A stretch of DNA of 64,000 bases from Xenophilus azovorans DSM 13620. Lineage in GTDB: Bacteria; Pseudomonadota; Gammaproteobacteria; Burkholderiales; Burkholderiaceae_C. How positions within the stretch are numbered: position 1 is the first letter of the stretch; the number at the start of each line of letters is the position of its first letter. The notes under the pieces are model-generated. The model did no database searches and had not been told where the DNA came from. It was given only the letters and a program-made list of their open reading frames with translations. Both the position numbers and the translations under genes were made by a program. Of this stretch, positions 57,256 through 64,000 are shown piece by piece. The stretch is from the NCBI RefSeq assembly GCF_000745855.1, contig NZ_JQKD01000003.1, positions 248,001 to 312,000 on the forward strand, written 5' to 3'.

Positions 57256-59259
57256 ATGCCGCTTCCGATGAGCACGCTTCCCGACGGTTCCGTCCCGCCC
57301 CACGCCCCGGCCGCCGCGCCGGACGATGACGCGCCCCTGCCCGCCTTCGAGGACCGCGCGCCGCCCGACCGCTTCTGCGACCTCGTCCTCACCGGCGGCG
57401 TGACCAGTTCCATCGCCTACCCGGCGCTGCTGCTGACGCTGGCGAGCAGCTTCCGCTTCCACAGCATCGGCGGGTCGTCCTCCGGCGCGGGCGCGGCGGC
57501 GCTGGCCGCCGCCGCCGAGTACCGCCGGCGGCACGGCTCGTCCGAGGGCTTCCGCATCCTGCTGGAGCGCACGGCCGAGGTGCGCCGGACGGTGGACGGC
57601 CGCACCACCCGGCTGCGCACGCTGTTCCAGCCCTGGGCGCATTCGCGGCGGCTGTTCGAGGCGCTGGTGCCGGTGCTGACGCAGCCGGAACTCAGCGTGA
57701 AGAGCCTGGCGGCGGCGCTGGCGCGCGCCTATCTCCTGGGCCAGCGCCTGGCCGCCGCCTGCCTGGGTGCGGGGGCGCTGCTGGCCGCGGCGGGCCTGGT
57801 GCTGACCCTGGCCGCGCCCGCCGGCTGGCCCCGGATGGCGCCGCTGGCGCTGATCGCCGGCGCCGCGCTGGGCGTGGCCGGCGCCTGCGTGGCGGGCCTC
57901 GCGCTGGCGCGCGACCTGCGCCGGCTGATCGACGACGACTTCGGCCTGTGCAGCGGCTCGCAGCGGCTCGCGCCCGACAGCCCTGCGCCGCTCACCGAGT
58001 GGCTGCACGGCCTGATCCAGGAGATCGCCGGGCGCACGGCGGACGGCCCGCCGCTCACCTTCGCCGATCTGCGCGACGCACCCGCCTCGCCGCGCGCCAT
58101 GGGCCAGGGCGGGCAGGAGATGGACGGCGTCTCGATCCGCCTGCAGGTGTACGCCGCCAACGTCACCCTCGGCCGCCCGCTGGTGCTGCCGCTGCGCGCG
58201 TCGGACGAGCCACTCTTCTTCCGCCCGCGCGAGATGCACCGCCTCTTCCCGGCCGCGGTGGTGCGGGCCATGATGCGGCAGCGCCGCGACGGCGCGCCGC
58301 CCGGCCGGCCCGACGACGAGGACGCGCTCTGGCGCCTGCCCGACAAGGAACTGCCAATCGTCGTGGCCGCGCGCATGAGCGTGAGTGCGCCACTGCTCTT
58401 CTCGCCCGTGCCGGTGTGGATGGACGACGCCGACAGCGGCCCGCCGGTGCCGCGCCGCTGCCTGCTGTCCGACGGCGGGCTGTGCTCGAACTTCCCCATC
58501 CACCTGTTCGACTGCGCCGTCCCGGCCTGGCCGACCTTCGGCGTGTCGCTGCACGACGCGCCGCGCGTGCCCGGCGCGCCCGTGGTGGCGCCGCAGCGCA
58601 TGACGCCCGAGGAGATCCGCGCCGCGGTGGACCTGCCCGAGCACCCCGACGCCATGCCGCGCCAGCCGTGGCAGCGCTTCGGCGACGAACCCTCACCCTG
58701 GCAGCGCGCCTTCGGCTTCCTGGGCGCGCTGCTGTGGACCGCCAAGGACTGGAACGACGCCCTGCTCGCCCGCATGCCCGGCGTGCGCGACCGCATCGTG
58801 CGCGTGGCGCTGCCGCCGGGCATCGGCGGCCTGAACATCTGCATGACGCCGGACCAGATCCAGAGCCTGTCGGACCTCGGCCGCGAGGCCGGCCGGCGGC
58901 TGCTGGAACGCTTCGCCCGCCCGGCCCTGCCCGACGGCACCGCCGCCGGCTGGGCCGAGCACCGCTGGGTGCGCCTGCACCTGCTGCGCGAGGGCCTGGC
59001 CGAACTGCTGGCCGGCGCCTCGGCCGCCGCCGCGCCGGGCGCCTACGGCCCGTCGCTGGCGCAGCAGGTGCGGGATGCGCAGGCCCGCACGCCCCTGCGC
59101 GGCGACGACGCCCAGCGCCTGCTGGCCGCCCAGGCCGCCGCGCTCGAAGGCACGCTGGCCGCGCTGCGCGCCGCCGAGGCGGCCCTGGGCGCGCCGCAGG
59201 CCGCCCCGCCCTACCAGCCGCGCCCGCAGCCGATGCTGCGCCTGCGGCCGCCGCTGTAG
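57256..59259 (+). CDS. Patatin-like phospholipase with two membrane helices
   Basis: A 667-residue patatin-family lipid acyl hydrolase. The nucleophile motif is GGSSSG (Ser75 of G-x-S-x-G) and the catalytic Asp406 lies in LLSDGGLCSNFP, giving the Ser-Asp dyad. A hydrophobic pair near residues 159-220 (CLGAGALLAAAGLVLTLAA and LALIAGAALGVAGACVAGLA) would anchor it in the membrane and is unusual within a patatin domain. It would release fatty acids from phospholipids. The next gene, 21 bp on, encodes a peroxidase-P450 fusion that could use the product. Start at 57256 or 57268 (MST..). Confidence 0.85.
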   Translation: MPLPMSTLPDGSVPPHAPAAAPDDDAPLPAFEDRAPPDRFCDLVLTGGVTSSIAYPALLLTLASSFRFHSIGGSSSGAGAAALAAAAEYRRRHGSSEGFRILLERTAEVRRTVDGRTTRLRTLFQPWAHSRRLFEALVPVLTQPELSVKSLAAALARAYLLGQRLAAACLGAGALLAAAGLVLTLAAPAGWPRMAPLALIAGAALGVAGACVAGLALARDLRRLIDDDFGLCSGSQRLAPDSPAPLTEWLHGLIQEIAGRTADGPPLTFADLRDAPASPRAMGQGGQEMDGVSIRLQVYAANVTLGRPLVLPLRASDEPLFFRPREMHRLFPAAVVRAMMRQRRDGAPPGRPDDEDALWRLPDKELPIVVAARMSVSAPLLFSPVPVWMDDADSGPPVPRRCLLSDGGLCSNFPIHLFDCAVPAWPTFGVSLHDAPRVPGAPVVAPQRMTPEEIRAAVDLPEHPDAMPRQPWQRFGDEPSPWQRAFGFLGALLWTAKDWNDALLARMPGVRDRIVRVALPPGIGGLNICMTPDQIQSLSDLGREAGRRLLERFARPALPDGTAAGWAEHRWVRLHLLREGLAELLAGASAAAAPGAYGPSLAQQVRDAQARTPLRGDDAQRLLAAQAAALEGTLAALRAAEAALGAPQAAPPYQPRPQPMLRLRPPL

Positions 59260-59280: not shown

Positions 59281-62200
59281 ATGCCCGCCGATCCCACCTC
59301 CAAGTCGCGCACCCTGCGCGGCATCAGCGACCTGACGCTGCTCGCGCCGATCCGGCGCGGCCTGGTCCCCGCGCCCGACGCGCGCAGCTACGAGAGCCGG
59401 CTGCGCCTGCTGCTGCGCACCGTCAACGCACTGCGCTACTCGTCGCTGGAAGCCGAGCCCACGCCGCTGATCCCGGACGTGGTGGACAGCATCCGCGCGC
59501 TGCACGCCTTCCGCCTGGCCATCGTCCCGGCGCAGCCGGTGAACCAGCTCCTGCTCTCGGTCGACTTCGACGGCGGCTGGGAGCCCTACATGCGCCGCAT
59601 CTGGCGCGACCTCGGGCCGCTGCTGGACGTGATCTTCTGCAACTGCGAGGGCTACCTGCTCTCGCACGAGCATCCCTTCGAGGCCTACGCCGGCTGGGTG
59701 CGCTCGGCGCAGGTGAACACCGAGTTCCTCTACACCGCCAGCCCGGTCACGGTGAACGACCTGCACTGGCTGCGCGCCACGCAGCGCCCGACCCGCGCCG
59801 CGCCGCCGGGCACCGACGAGGAGCTGCTGCGCCAGGCCCTGCCCGGCCTGGCCGCCCTGTACCGCCTCACCGACGTCTACCCGCCCGGCAGCCCCGACGG
59901 CGACGTGCTGCTGCGCGCCGCGCACCACCTGCTCCAGCCGCTGCGCGGGCTGCCGCCGGCCCGCCGCCAGGGCCGCACCCCCACCGAGCAGGCGGCGCTG
60001 GCGTGGTTCGACCTGCCCGCGGCGCCGCGCCCCGCGCGCGACGTGCCGGCCGCGTGGAACCCGGCCAACACGCAGGGCGGCATCGTCGAGTCCTTCCCCG
60101 ACGCCACGCACGGCGCCGTGCTGCTGCTCGGCCTGCGCGATGCCGGCGCGGCGGCGGCGCTGATCGACGCGCTCGGCCCCGAGCGGCTGCGCGCCGACGC
60201 CGCGCCGGCGCCGGACGAGCCCTTCGCCAGCCTGGCCTTCACGCCGCGGGGCCTGCGCCGCGCCGGCCTGCCGGAGGGGCTGCTGGCCGCCTTTCCGCCG
60301 GAATTCCTCGAGGGCATGGCGGGCCGCGCGGCGGTGCTCGGCGACATGGCCTGCAACCACCCGCTGCACTGGACGCCGCCCGAGCGCAACTGGCCCGCGC
60401 CGGCGCCCGGCGAAGCACCGCAGCGCATCGAGCTGGGCAGCGTGCACGCGGTGCTGCAACTGGTCGCGCGCGGCCCGGTCGAGGGGCCGTGGGAAGCGCA
60501 GCCCGGCCATCCGCTGCGCCGCCGCATCGAGGCGCTGGACGCGGCGCTGGCCCCGCACGGCGTGCGCATCCTGTCGGTCGAGCCGATGCAGCGCCACCTC
60601 GACGCGCAGGGCCACCAGCGCGACCACTTCGGCTTCGCCGACGGCCTGAGCAACCCGGCGCCGCCGCAGGGCGGCGCCCGCCCCCAGCCCTGGGACCGCT
60701 GGGCGCTGGGCGACTACCTGCTGGGCTACACCAACTCGCAGCAGGAGGACACGCCGAGCGGCTGGCTGTGGACCGACAGCAGCTTCCTCGTGGTGCGCAA
60801 GCTGCGGCAGGACACGGCGACGCTCGAGGCCCTGCTCGCCCCCCTGCCGCCCGCCCAGCGCGAGGAGGCGATGGCCCACATGGTCGGCCGCTGGCCCGAC
60901 GGCCGCAGCCTGATGGACCCGGACGGCCGCCTGGGCAACGACTTCGACTACCGCGCCGACCCCGACGGCCGCCGCTGCCCCTTCGCCGCGCACGCCCGCC
61001 GCGCCAACCCGCGCGACCTGCCCGGCGAGCGCGCCGACCAGCGCGTGCTGCCGCGCATCCTGCGGCGCGGCATGGCCTACGGGCCGCCGGCGCAGCAGGG
61101 GCCGCAGGCCGACCGGGGCGTGATGTTCATGGCCTACAACGCCTCCATCGCCGAGCAGTTCGAGCTGATCCAGTCCTGGCTGTCCGGCGGCAACAGCGGC
61201 GGCGTCCAGGCCTACTCGGGCCAGCGCGACCCGCTGTTCGGCGTGCCGCGCGAGGGCGATCCCGCCGTGTTCCGCTACGAGGGCGCGCACGGCCCGGTCG
61301 AGGTGCCGCTCGGGCCGAAGCCGGCCGTCACGCTGCAGTGGGGGCTGTACCTCTTCGCACCCTCCATCGAGGCGCTGCGCGAGCTGCGTCGGCTGGCGCG
61401 CGAGCAGGCCCGGCGCGAGGCGCGCGGCGCCGACGCCGAGGCGGCCGAGCGCCAGCGCGCCACCGAGGCGAAGAAGGGCGCCGTGCTCATCGCGCGGCTG
61501 CAGGCGGCCGAAGCGGCCCTGGGCGTGGCCGCCGCGGCGGAGCAGTGGAAGATCGCGCTGGAAGACCTCAGCGCGCGCCAGTCCGGCGCCAGCCAGTGGC
61601 TCTGGACGGCGGTGCGCGAACTGCACGGCGGCGTGCTGCGCACCCCCTTCGGCGTGCTGGTGGGCCGCCGCGAGCAGGTGATGGAGGTGTTCGACAACCG
61701 CCTGGGCCGCTACACCGTGAGCGGCTACTGCCCGCGCATGCGCGCCTCCTTCGGCGAGATCTACCTCGGCCTGGACGACGGCCCCGACTACCGCGCAGCG
61801 TCGCGGGCGGCCAACGCGGCGATCCTGGCCGTGACCCGCGGGGCGGCCTTCGCGCAGGCGCTGGCCGATGCGCAGGTGGTGCTCGCCGGCCTGCGCGCCG
61901 GCGCGGGCGGCCAGGCCGGCGTCGACGTGAAGGACATCGTCAACGGCGTGCTCGCGCGCCTGGCGACGCACTTCTTCGGCTTTCCCGATCCGGGCGGCGG
62001 CGTCGCCGTCGGCGACGTGGGGCTGGACGCGGCCCGGCCCACCTGCCCGGGCCACTTCCTCGCGCCCTCGCGCTACATGTTCCAGCCCAACCCCGGCCCG
62101 GAGGCGGCGCGCACCGGCGAGGCGCACGGCCGCGTGCTGCGCGAGCACGTGCTGCAGCGCCTGCGCGCGGGCCTGCGCACCGCCAACCGCAGCGCGGTCG

Positions 62201-62739
62201 GGCAGGCGCTGGCCGGCATCGAGGACGACGCGCAGTACGCCGCCACGCTGATCGGCGTGATGATGGGCTTCCTGCCCACGGTGGACGGCAGCCTGCGCAG
62301 CGCGCTGTACGAGTGGGTGGACGACCGCTCGCTGTGGGAGCTGCAGCTGGCCTGGCGGGCGGCGCGGGAGGCCGGCCGCACGCCCTTCGAGGCCGCCGCC
62401 GAGGCGATCGAGCCGGCGCTGCGCCGCACGATGCAGCTGCGGCCGGTGCCCGAGCTGGTGTGGCGCACCGCGGCCGCCGCCCACCGCCTGGGCGGCGTGG
62501 ACATCGCGCCGGGCGAACGCATCGTGGTGGGCATCGTCTCGGCCATGCAGCAGAGCCGCCTGGAGGGCGAGCCCGATATCGGGCCCGTCTTCGGCGGCGA
62601 CCGCCGCGCCGCGCCGCACCCCACCCACGCCTGCCCCGGCCAGGAGATGGCGATGGGCGTGATGCTGGGCCTGCTGGCCGCGCTGCTGGACACGCCGCTG
62701 CGGCCGACGCTGGCGGCCACGGTGCTGCACCTGGGCTGA
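59281..62739 (+). CDS. DyP-type peroxidase fused to cytochrome P450
   Basis: A 1152-residue single reading frame. Residues 1-240: ferredoxin-like alpha/beta domain, including LLLSVDFDGGWEPYMRRIWR. About 255-690: DyP peroxidase with the catalytic GFADG (Asp454), proximal heme His571 in CPFAAHARRANPR, RILRRGMAYG (about 592-601) and FMAYNASIAEQFELIQSW. A charged helical linker follows (about 690-780). About 800-1152: P450 with heme Cys1118 in THACPGQEMAMG. The I-helix segment near 992 reads GVMMGFLPTVDG without the usual acid-Thr pair, and the K-helix position before R1054 is Met, not Glu. RBS GAGGA. Forms an operon with the patatin gene. No signal peptide; probably cytoplasmic or membrane-associated. 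Confidence 0.88.
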   Translation: MPADPTSKSRTLRGISDLTLLAPIRRGLVPAPDARSYESRLRLLLRTVNALRYSSLEAEPTPLIPDVVDSIRALHAFRLAIVPAQPVNQLLLSVDFDGGWEPYMRRIWRDLGPLLDVIFCNCEGYLLSHEHPFEAYAGWVRSAQVNTEFLYTASPVTVNDLHWLRATQRPTRAAPPGTDEELLRQALPGLAALYRLTDVYPPGSPDGDVLLRAAHHLLQPLRGLPPARRQGRTPTEQAALAWFDLPAAPRPARDVPAAWNPANTQGGIVESFPDATHGAVLLLGLRDAGAAAALIDALGPERLRADAAPAPDEPFASLAFTPRGLRRAGLPEGLLAAFPPEFLEGMAGRAAVLGDMACNHPLHWTPPERNWPAPAPGEAPQRIELGSVHAVLQLVARGPVEGPWEAQPGHPLRRRIEALDAALAPHGVRILSVEPMQRHLDAQGHQRDHFGFADGLSNPAPPQGGARPQPWDRWALGDYLLGYTNSQQEDTPSGWLWTDSSFLVVRKLRQDTATLEALLAPLPPAQREEAMAHMVGRWPDGRSLMDPDGRLGNDFDYRADPDGRRCPFAAHARRANPRDLPGERADQRVLPRILRRGMAYGPPAQQGPQADRGVMFMAYNASIAEQFELIQSWLSGGNSGGVQAYSGQRDPLFGVPREGDPAVFRYEGAHGPVEVPLGPKPAVTLQWGLYLFAPSIEALRELRRLAREQARREARGADAEAAERQRATEAKKGAVLIARLQAAEAALGVAAAAEQWKIALEDLSARQSGASQWLWTAVRELHGGVLRTPFGVLVGRREQVMEVFDNRLGRYTVSGYCPRMRASFGEIYLGLDDGPDYRAASRAANAAILAVTRGAAFAQALADAQVVLAGLRAGAGGQAGVDVKDIVNGVLARLATHFFGFPDPGGGVAVGDVGLDAARPTCPGHFLAPSRYMFQPNPGPEAARTGEAHGRVLREHVLQRLRAGLRTANRSAVGQALAGIEDDAQYAATLIGVMMGFLPTVDGSLRSALYEWVDDRSLWELQLAWRAAREAGRTPFEAAAEAIEPALRRTMQLRPVPELVWRTAAAAHRLGGVDIAPGERIVVGIVSAMQQSRLEGEPDIGPVFGGDRRAAPHPTHACPGQEMAMGVMLGLLAALLDTPLRPTLAATVLHLG

Positions 62740-62746
62740 CGCAGGG

Positions 62747-64000
62747 TCAGAGGCCGGCGCGCAGTGCGGCGGCCTGCGCCAGGTGCCAGTCCATGCCCAG
62801 GCGCTGGAAACCCTCCGCTGCCGCATCGAGCTGTCGCGCCGCCTCGGCGCCGTCGCCGCGCGCGACGGCCAGCCGGGCACGGCACAGCGCATTGCAGGCC
62901 GCCTCGTGCGGCGACCGGCGAAGCGCCGCGGCGCGGTCGGCCAGGTGCAGCGCGCGCGCCAGCCGCGCATCGTCGCCCGCGTCGGCCGCCAGGCGCGCCA
63001 GGGCGCGGCCGGCCATCGCCGCGCCCAGCCAGTCGCGCCGGCGCGCCCGCGCCAGCGTCCGGGCGGCGGCGGCGCGGGCCCCGTCCGGACGGCCGAGCGC
63101 CGCCATCGCATCGCTCACCCAGCCGTGGTTGAGCGAGGAGAACAGGGCCTTGTCGCGCAGGGCCAGCCAGGCGGCCGAGTCCTGCAGCGCGGCCAGCGTG
63201 CCGGGCTGCGGGCCGAGCATCCACTGCGCATAAGCGCCCAGGCCCTGGCTCATGGCGAAGATGTACAGGCTCTTGACCCGCTCGCCCACGCGGTGCGCCG
63301 CCTGCGCGTCGGCCAGCGCCGCCTGCCAGCGGCCCTGCCAGAGGTTGACGCCGGCGCGCCAGCACAGCACCGAGCCCTCGACCTCGTGGCCGGGGCCGGG
63401 CAGGGCGGCCAGCGCCTCCTCGAAGCAGGCGTGCGCGTCGTCGAAGCGGCCCAGGTCGCCCAGCGCGCTGGCGCGGCAGGCCAGCGCATAGGCCTCGCCG
63501 GGCGAGCGGCGGCCGCCCACGGGCGTGCCGGGGCCGTGCGCCGCGGCGTCGAACAGGTCGAGCGCGCGCGCGTAGCCGGCGGCGGCGGTCAGCGCCTGCC
63601 CGAGCAGCACGCGTGCCTGCACGACCAGCGGCACGTCGCGCAGCGCCGTGGCGCTCTCCAGCGCCTGCTCGCAGTGGCCGACGGCGCTCTTCGTCTCGCC
63701 CAGCGCGTACTGCAGGTAGGCCAGCCAGTACTGGGCGTAGGCGTGGCCGGCGGCGTCGTCGTGCGCGCGGGCCTGGTCGATGGCGCGGCGCAGCAGCGCC
63801 TGCTCGTCGCGCGAGGGGTCGAAGGCCGTCGCCAGGCCCAGCCGCCGCGCCACCGCGCGCCAGGCCTGGTAGCGCCCGGGCGTGGGCGGCAGGCGGTCGA
63901 GCATGTGCAGCGTGGCGCGGTACTGGGTCTTGGCCCGGTCGATGGAAGAAGCAGCCATCGCCTTGTCGCCGGCCATGCCGGCGTAACGCGCCGCCTCGGC
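62747..64000 (-). CDS. C-terminal part of a large TPR-like helical-repeat protein
   Basis: The last 417 residues of a protein that continues beyond the window; the frame is open to base 64000. It is made of about nine TPR-like helix pairs, for example AYAQYWLAYLQYALGETKSA, YALACRASALGDLGRFDDAH and AMAGRALARLAADAGDDARL. Such tails are found at the end of class III adenylate/guanylate cyclases with AAA ATPase domains and of LuxR/MalT-type regulators; the opening A-E-A-A-R-Y-A-G-M-A-G-D-K-A fits the boundary after an ATPase. The catalytic part is outside the window, so the identity is open. It converges on the DyP-P450 gene. Confidence 0.75.
   Translation of the reverse strand, partial: AEAARYAGMAGDKAMAASSIDRAKTQYRATLHMLDRLPPTPGRYQAWRAVARRLGLATAFDPSRDEQALLRRAIDQARAHDDAAGHAYAQYWLAYLQYALGETKSAVGHCEQALESATALRDVPLVVQARVLLGQALTAAAGYARALDLFDAAAHGPGTPVGGRRSPGEAYALACRASALGDLGRFDDAHACFEEALAALPGPGHEVEGSVLCWRAGVNLWQGRWQAALADAQAAHRVGERVKSLYIFAMSQGLGAYAQWMLGPQPGTLAALQDSAAWLALRDKALFSSLNHGWVSDAMAALGRPDGARAAAARTLARARRRDWLGAAMAGRALARLAADAGDDARLARALHLADRAAALRRSPHEAACNALCRARLAVARGDGAEAARQLDAAAEGFQRLGMDWHLAQAAALRAGL

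Follow-up and report, generated by a model that had tools for sequence, protein, structure and literature searches.

The 64,000-nucleotide stretch of the Xenophilus azovorans DSM 13620 genome analysed here (the window) carries, close to its end, a gene in which a DyP-type peroxidase is joined in one frame to a C-terminal domain with the predicted fold of a cytochrome P450 (P450). We describe the anatomy of this fusion, namely its folds, the motifs that it has kept and lost, and the genes linked to it. It is a family and not a one-off. The best explanation that we can offer, to which we give slightly less than an even chance, is a self-sufficient, peroxide-driven enzyme with two hemes, like the fungal dioxygenase-P450 fusions, perhaps acting on a lipid and tied to cyclic-nucleotide signalling.

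The frame has no internal stop over its 1152 aa, and the GC content at codon position 3 (0.976-0.984) is alike across the three domains; a longer overlapping frame (1761 aa) has the shifted GC pattern typical of a non-coding frame. One Foldseek search with the predicted full-length model matches both DyPs (E 2.8e-18) and P450s (E 2.9e-9). An earlier reading of the window from its letters alone (the sequence-only reading) had proposed a single uninterrupted frame with both parts, and this is what we find: no stop or frameshift separates them, either here or in 30 of the 32 related loci described below. Since those 30 loci hold the same continuous fusion and the codon GC is even, an assembly or frameshift artefact was rejected.

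The relatives come from a scan of 84,980 species genomes for a profile of the C-terminal domain, made by way of two short peptide patterns, which gave 85 stretches and 32 relatives. Continuous fusion frames make up 30 of the 32 loci; 29 measure 1155-1989 aa from the first ATG, and that of L028 (1169 aa) runs off the contig start. The other two loci are a stand-alone P450-like gene (L050) and one cut by a contig end (L057). Our alignment has 30 rows, the window protein and 29 of the 30 fusions, with L027 left out (L026 and L027 are two assemblies of strain E41). Within the genus, four other genomes, two of them assemblies of strain E41, have full-length homologues with 61-62% identity; in a fifth genome the contig end truncates the homologue. 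Named hosts belong to the Burkholderiales (Xenophilus, Variovorax, Roseateles, Paucibacter, Mitsuaria, Rubrivivax and Ideonella) and to the Alphaproteobacteria (Bradyrhizobium, Hyphomonas, Novosphingobium, Erythrobacter and Sandarakinorhabdus). In a sample of the order the C-terminal domain was matched in 8 of 399 genomes, strongly in 3, including that of the window. A fusion with patatin from Bradyrhizobium hereditatis (L031) is placed beside Variovorax soli within the window's clade (97/96), which suggests horizontal transfer. DyP-P450 fusions also occur on plasmids: the 8 records inspected out of 74 with a DyP-type match comprise two fusions, one split DyP-P450 pair, three with a nearby catalase-family gene and two with neither. 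A copy on a Sphingopyxis plasmid (L015:2959-8409) begins within the DyP domain, 63 bases past a Tn3 transposase gene, and was probably truncated by transposition. No description of a DyP-P450 fusion was found in the open-licence literature, where most subscription papers are absent; within that scope, the earlier statement that the architecture is undescribed stands.

By predicted fold, by family profile and by its Asp, His and Arg residues (Table 1), the middle of the protein is a DyP. The Pfam model PF20628 matches above its cut-off (E 1.3e-5), and NCBIfam TIGR01413 matches at E 1.2e-25, yet below its own cut-off (90.6 vs 100.5 bits). Sequence matches to DyPs in the PDB reach E 8.5e-31, and in a Foldseek search the DyP half matches the DyP of Deinococcus radiodurans (8re2, E 2.8e-18). 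This nearest solved DyP (8re2/8re3) shares with the fusion the fold, the Asp of the GxxDG motif, the His and the Arg. We take His571 to be the proximal heme ligand and Arg595 to be the distal Arg. The predicted heme ligands of the two halves, His571 and Cys1118, are both conserved in 30/30 rows.

The C-terminal half is a P450 by predicted fold and by its Cys ligand, not by ExxR or by Pfam. The Pfam P450 model (PF00067) matched none of the 30 aligned members at E 0.1, so that, of the two families that the earlier reading expected a profile search to find, only DyP was recovered by Pfam and NCBIfam. A P450 call by motif alone was set aside on this account. Over its 437 residues the C-terminal part has diverged too far for the Pfam model to recognise it, and profile and fold methods were required. 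With a 7-row profile of the domain, 19 of 19 PDB matches are P450s, each of them weak (E 0.17-1). With a 31-row profile, P450s account for 56 of the best 60 of 75 matches (best E 0.0064), counting as P450s NzeB and NascB, which we assume to be such; the list is completed by three viral coat proteins and one photosystem protein. By hhalign, most of the domain can be aligned to a stand-alone Skermanella P450 (95.9%, E 6e-9), and the domain also aligns to the P450 portion of a protein from Pararhizobium (88.5%, E 2.7e-6). The AlphaFold2 (AF2) model of the domain alone has a pLDDT of 94.5 and a pTM of 0.93, and all 50 Foldseek matches listed for it are P450s (best E 4.8e-10), PbdA among them being presumed a P450. 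The structural part of the earlier proposal is thus borne out by the model.

The heme loop of this half, which precedes the L helix, consists of FGGxR, an insert of variable length and His-Ala-Cys; the Cys, the His-Ala-Cys and the FGGxR are invariant in 31/31 rows, and Cys1118 itself is Cys in 30/30 aligned rows. The I helix carries GFLPT or a close variant, and the acid-alcohol pair of monooxygenases of the O2/NADPH type was not found in it, the acid position being Pro (Pro999) in all 30 fused rows. ExxR is absent as well: the alignment column of residue 1052 has Arg in 0/30 rows, and that of residue 1049 has Glu in two. Loss of ExxR inactivates most P450s tested, but Streptomyces P450s without it, such as CYP157, are reported functional (both in the part of PMC3990721 available to us). 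Given such exceptions, the absence of ExxR does not by itself exclude the domain from the P450s.

Relatives of this domain outside the fusion family also occur beside DyPs. A search of 397 genomes of the phylum with the C-terminal profile matched 14: the window, one further fusion (G539) and 12 single P450-like frames (400-592 aa). Surroundings were inspected for seven of the 12 (leaving out G513, G537, G687, G692 and G793). A DyP lies nearby in G707 and G636, the two best matches, and in G050, the fifth; none was found in the stretches examined around G384 and G786 (third and fourth) or around G084 and G328. On a Skermanella plasmid DyP and P450 are adjacent genes, and on a Pararhizobium plasmid they are fused in the opposite order, P450 first, in a protein annotated merely as 'cytochrome P450'. 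At the acid position all five of these DyP-linked P450s (G707, G636, G050, Skermanella and Pararhizobium) have Pro, and four unlinked ones (G384, G786, G084 and G167) have Asp or Glu.

A profile built from the five DyP-linked P450s and searched in the 397 genomes matched 15 with an E value of 1e-30 or below. A DyP is linked to twelve of these P450s: it is fused behind the P450 in six (frames of 1410-1544 aa), encoded directly beside it in four, and separated from it by roughly 1.5 kb in G707 and 2.3 kb in G650; no DyP was found near the other three within 16, 16 and 10 kb. The I-helix acid is present in 0/12 linked P450s (11 Pro, and Ala in G650) vs 3/3 unlinked ones, all Glu (Fisher p 0.0022). 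As three of the twelve had seeded both the profile and the idea of the pattern, the independent counts are nine linked and three unlinked, for which the acid is present in 0/9 (8 Pro, 1 Ala) vs 3/3, with a chance of 1 in 220; the figures should be taken as indicative only, since one genus supplies four of the nine and the profile is biased towards DyP-linked relatives. Two DyP-free relatives (L120:7506-8687 and L122:7987-9150) read GGIETT and GAIETT where DyP-linked ones read GAIPTT. ExxR is kept in all 17 stand-alone or P450-first P450s (the 15 genomes and the two plasmids) and lost only in the window-type domain.

In a tree of the P450 domains, rooted at its midpoint only, the window-type domains form one clade on a long branch (100/100) and the P450-first fusions another (98/94). 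Given these separate clades, it is likely that the two parts were fused twice, in opposite orders. The P450-first DyP fusions (L014, L116-L119, L121 and L123) are about 1410-1545 aa long and, in six of the seven, have an N-terminal-type domain between the halves. The sequence-only reading was right about a genuine fusion with conserved ligands, and it missed the family, the reverse-order fusion, the loss of ExxR and the cyclase neighbour.

This neighbour, a nucleotide cyclase gene, is the most constant one of the fusion. The layout of its product, class III cyclase, AAA and TPR, presumably resembles that of soluble adenylyl cyclase. A homologue is found in 30/32 loci; in 27 it lies downstream and points towards the fusion, and in 25 the two genes overlap or are less than 200 bases apart. 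In the genus, at E 1e-40, the cyclase is present in exactly the six of 15 genomes with the fusion (two of the six being one strain) and in 0/9 others, and cyclase-type genes, recognised by a match over a short part, precede five of the seven P450-first fusions (L014 and L116-L119). Two Asp residues that we take to bind metal are kept in 34/34 aligned rows; the Asn and the Arg, which we assume to be catalytic, are kept in 28/34 and 25/34. Gly and His replace Asn and Arg in six rows, the window and L026-L030, and the protein of the window's clade may be a pseudo-cyclase.

Upstream of the fusion, the patatin-like phospholipase has GSSSG (GxSxG) and DGG motifs. A patatin gene is present at the window and in five of the 32 loci (two of one strain), and a GDSL hydrolase is fused in three (L033, L036 and L049) and adjacent in one (L034), so that lipase-like genes or domains occur in 9/32 loci. 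Past the cyclase, outside the window, lie a CRP-type regulator gene and a LuxR-type gene; genes that cluster with this CRP gene are present in 10/32 loci. Ten neighbour genes of other loci gave no common pathway (an MFS transporter, a histidine kinase, an amylase, an AMP-binding enzyme, a RoxA-like protein, one GDSL hydrolase and four with no or weak matches). Large neighbour genes are present at L032:9378-16578 and L038:9283-17197. At L067:2-9210 a cyclase-type gene, one further gene, a DyP and a patatin stand in a row, and no P450 domain is present.

Several known systems resemble the fusion in part. The fungal Ppo enzymes, linoleate diol synthases and DOX-AOS (dioxygenase, DOX) likewise combine in one chain an oxidative heme enzyme and, after it, a P450. 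Passages of PMC13049297 describe the P450s that partner fungal dioxygenases as self-sufficient and as retaining HxC, and by analogy self-sufficiency would be expected of the P450 in the bacterial fusion too. Unlike it, the fungal proteins begin with a cyclooxygenase-type dioxygenase, whereas the bacterial one has a DyP (by Pfam and fold) and lacks ExxR. The CYP152 peroxygenases, in the available portion of PMC5818669, share the missing acid-alcohol pair and an altered Cys loop, but have Arg-Pro at the position of the pair where the window family has Pro-Thr or Pro-Pro, and no CYP152 was found among the PDB matches listed for the 31-row profile or in those of Foldseek. The window fusion is thus neither a fungal DOX-CYP nor a CYP152. 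Pseudomonas aeruginosa makes diols from oleate by a bacterial two-step hydroperoxide route, with RoxA-like dioxygenase and diol synthase proteins (as far as excerpts of PMC4496055 and PMC5155153 go), but through two separate di-heme enzymes, with no P450 and no DyP.

This last system bears on L050, the locus with the stand-alone P450-like domain. There (L050:4838-14811) the domain is accompanied by a convergent cyclase, a di-heme peroxidase, a GST, a GMC oxidoreductase and a gene of the CRP cluster. The di-heme peroxidase matches NF040606 with 405.7 bits (cut-off 150; E 4e-121), its best PDB match is the RoxA structure 4b2n (E 1.3e-7), and its CXXCH motifs are 242 residues apart; spacings of 245 and 235 are given for the RoxA-like 10S-DOX and diol synthase proteins of P. 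aeruginosa (PMC4496055, seen in part). From these sequences, it is possible that in L050 the DyP was swapped for a di-heme peroxidase.

In the working that we propose, the DyP half would use peroxide to form a ferryl heme and would oxidise a hydrophobic substrate. The P450 half would take up peroxide, or else a hydroperoxide that the DyP had formed, and would rearrange or oxygenate in the manner of an isomerase or a peroxygenase, without NADPH or a redox partner. The substrate would probably be a fatty acid or other lipid, freed in some lineages by the adjacent or fused lipase, and enzyme and product may be part of a cyclic-nucleotide circuit with the class III cyclase-AAA-TPR protein and, in some loci, CRP. 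From the lack of a leader sequence by eye, the enzyme is probably cytoplasmic. An NADPH-free P450 half is suggested because the DyP-linked P450s lack the acid, because CYP152 also lacks the pair and the fungal HxC P450s are self-sufficient (in the parts of the papers cited above), and because L050 has a di-heme neighbour. A lipid is suggested by the lipase-like genes and domains and by analogy; for the coupling to cyclic nucleotides the evidence is gene linkage. From all this we infer heme content, peroxide use, a lipid substrate, and signalling together with its direction. The parallel with the fungal fusions draws indirect support from the acid loss, the P450s that neighbour DyPs, and L050.

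Several observations weigh against this proposal. DyPs classically oxidise dyes and aromatics and are not known for acting on fatty acids. The full-length model has an overall pTM of 0.59, so that the packing of the two halves against each other is uncertain. With ExxR absent in 30/30 rows heme may not bind, and Thr at residue 1000, after Pro999, is retained incompletely (25/30, with Pro in 5/30). No lipase was recognised by Pfam-type tests in 23/32 loci, and four of the nine lipase-like cases, the GDSL hydrolases, lie below the Pfam cut-off. The cyclase was not found in the stretches examined of L038 and L044, and its loss of the presumed catalytic Asn and Arg makes a cyclic-nucleotide output doubtful in the window's clade. 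L050 is a single locus in a metagenome-assembled genome, and the likeness of its di-heme protein to the Pseudomonas enzymes is one of sequence.

The same anatomy admits other explanations. The P450 half could be a pseudo-enzyme, its fold and perhaps its heme kept as a scaffold, regulator or peroxide or gas sensor for the DyP or the cyclase. The absence of ExxR, the heme loop rebuilt with an insert, a long branch (length 2.23) that sets it apart from other P450s and the near-constant cyclase all agree with this, but the invariance of Cys, His-Ala-Cys and FGGxR and the functional Streptomyces P450s without EXXR (PMC3990721, in part) speak for a working enzyme, and we find a pseudo-enzyme distinctly unlikely. 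An enzyme of catabolism or biosynthesis, acting on an aromatic compound or a secondary metabolite and only accompanied or regulated by lipases and cyclase, would suit the classical action of DyPs on aromatics. Consistent with it, the DyP-linked P450s of G636 and G584 match biosynthetic P450 models weakly, all below cut-off, and L055 has a gene for an AMP-binding enzyme nearby. Against it, no aromatic-ring or natural-product gene is common to the loci among the identified neighbours, which are a minority of the neighbour clusters, and lipase-like genes or domains recur; overall we consider it unlikely.

A cyclic-nucleotide defence system of the Pycsar kind, with the DyP-P450 as effector, is highly improbable. 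PADLOC does recognise the cyclase by its PycC models (best 1.2e-12) and the CRP protein by its models of Pycsar effectors (best 8.1e-13), but these matches look generic (cyclase domain, cyclic-nucleotide binding), fusion and patatin match no PADLOC model, and the AAA and TPR parts and the CRP-type transcription factor are unlike the usual Pycsar layout.

If the proposed peroxide-driven working holds, the fusion would be a self-sufficient oxidation catalyst, some bacterial DyPs would have a physiological role, and a lipid-signalling route would be coupled to cyclic nucleotides. A natural fusion is a pointer to consecutive reactions, the product of one enzyme being handed on to the other; here two heme families appear to have been joined twice, in opposite orders, and the change from acid to Pro in the P450 tracks the link to DyP. 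A direct test is thereby opened, namely whether the DyP supplies the P450 with hydroperoxide without NADPH. A bolder version, which seems to us rather unlikely, is a bacterial lipid-mediator system in which lipase, DyP and self-sufficient P450 would make an oxylipin-like signal that is read or controlled by the protein resembling soluble adenylyl cyclase and by CRP. If true, it would be a separately evolved prokaryotic parallel of cyclooxygenase-P450 and cAMP signalling, and to the cyclooxygenase and RoxA-like types of heme enzyme recruited to supply a partner with hydroperoxides, DyP would be added as a third.

Table 1. Positions in the window of the fusion gene, its domains and motifs, and the genes beside it
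Feature	Positions	Strand	Basis or remark
Fusion gene (N-terminal domain, DyP, P450-like domain)	59281..62739	+	1152 aa, ATG start
N-terminal domain (residues 1-250), conserved	59281..60030	+	alignment, hhalign
DyP domain (residues 255-705)	60043..61395	+	Pfam, NCBIfam, PDB, Foldseek
Asp454 of GxxDG motif	60640..60642	+	30/30 aligned rows
His571 of DyP	60991..60993	+	30/30 aligned rows
Arg595 of DyP	61063..61065	+	30/30 aligned rows
P450-like domain (residues 716-1152)	61426..62736	+	AF2 pLDDT 94.5; Foldseek; profile matches
I helix (983-1014) with GFLPT; Pro999 where P450s have Asp/Glu	62227..62322	+	alignment, model
K helix (1044-1053), without ExxR; no Arg at 1052 in 30/30	62410..62439	+	alignment
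Heme loop FGGDRRAAPHPTHACP with Cys1118	62590..62637	+	Cys in 30/30 rows
Convergent gene, class III cyclase + AAA + TPR protein (1021 aa)	62747..64000, on to 65812 beyond the window	-	homologue in 30/32 loci
Patatin-like phospholipase gene, 21 bases upstream of fusion	57256..59259	+	PF01734 E 4.4e-8, above cut-off

For the N-terminal domain, neither Pfam nor the PDB (searched up to E 1) gave a match. The predicted order of elements in residues 15-119 (strand-helix-strand-strand-helix) is compatible with the ferredoxin-like label that it had been given. Homologues are separate small genes adjoining the DyP in Deinococcus radiodurans (hhalign 98%, E 2.7e-13) and in Microvirga (98.6%); the domain also matches part of the gene preceding the DyP in Skermanella (96.4%) and, more weakly, the gene before the DyP in G050 (88.4%). 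The DyP of that Deinococcus locus is the solved 8re2/8re3 protein and, unlike the window fusion, is a separate 457-aa protein adjoining a catalase-family gene, with no P450. Catalase-related proteins serve elsewhere as hydroperoxide-converting partners of lipoxygenase. In Deinococcus, Microvirga and one Rhizobium locus the DyP is accompanied by a catalase-family gene, with no P450 in the stretches examined, and the arrangement of DyP, small N-terminal-domain homologue and catalase-family gene is seen at L073:4034-7267, L075:2871-6122 and L017:4818-7822.

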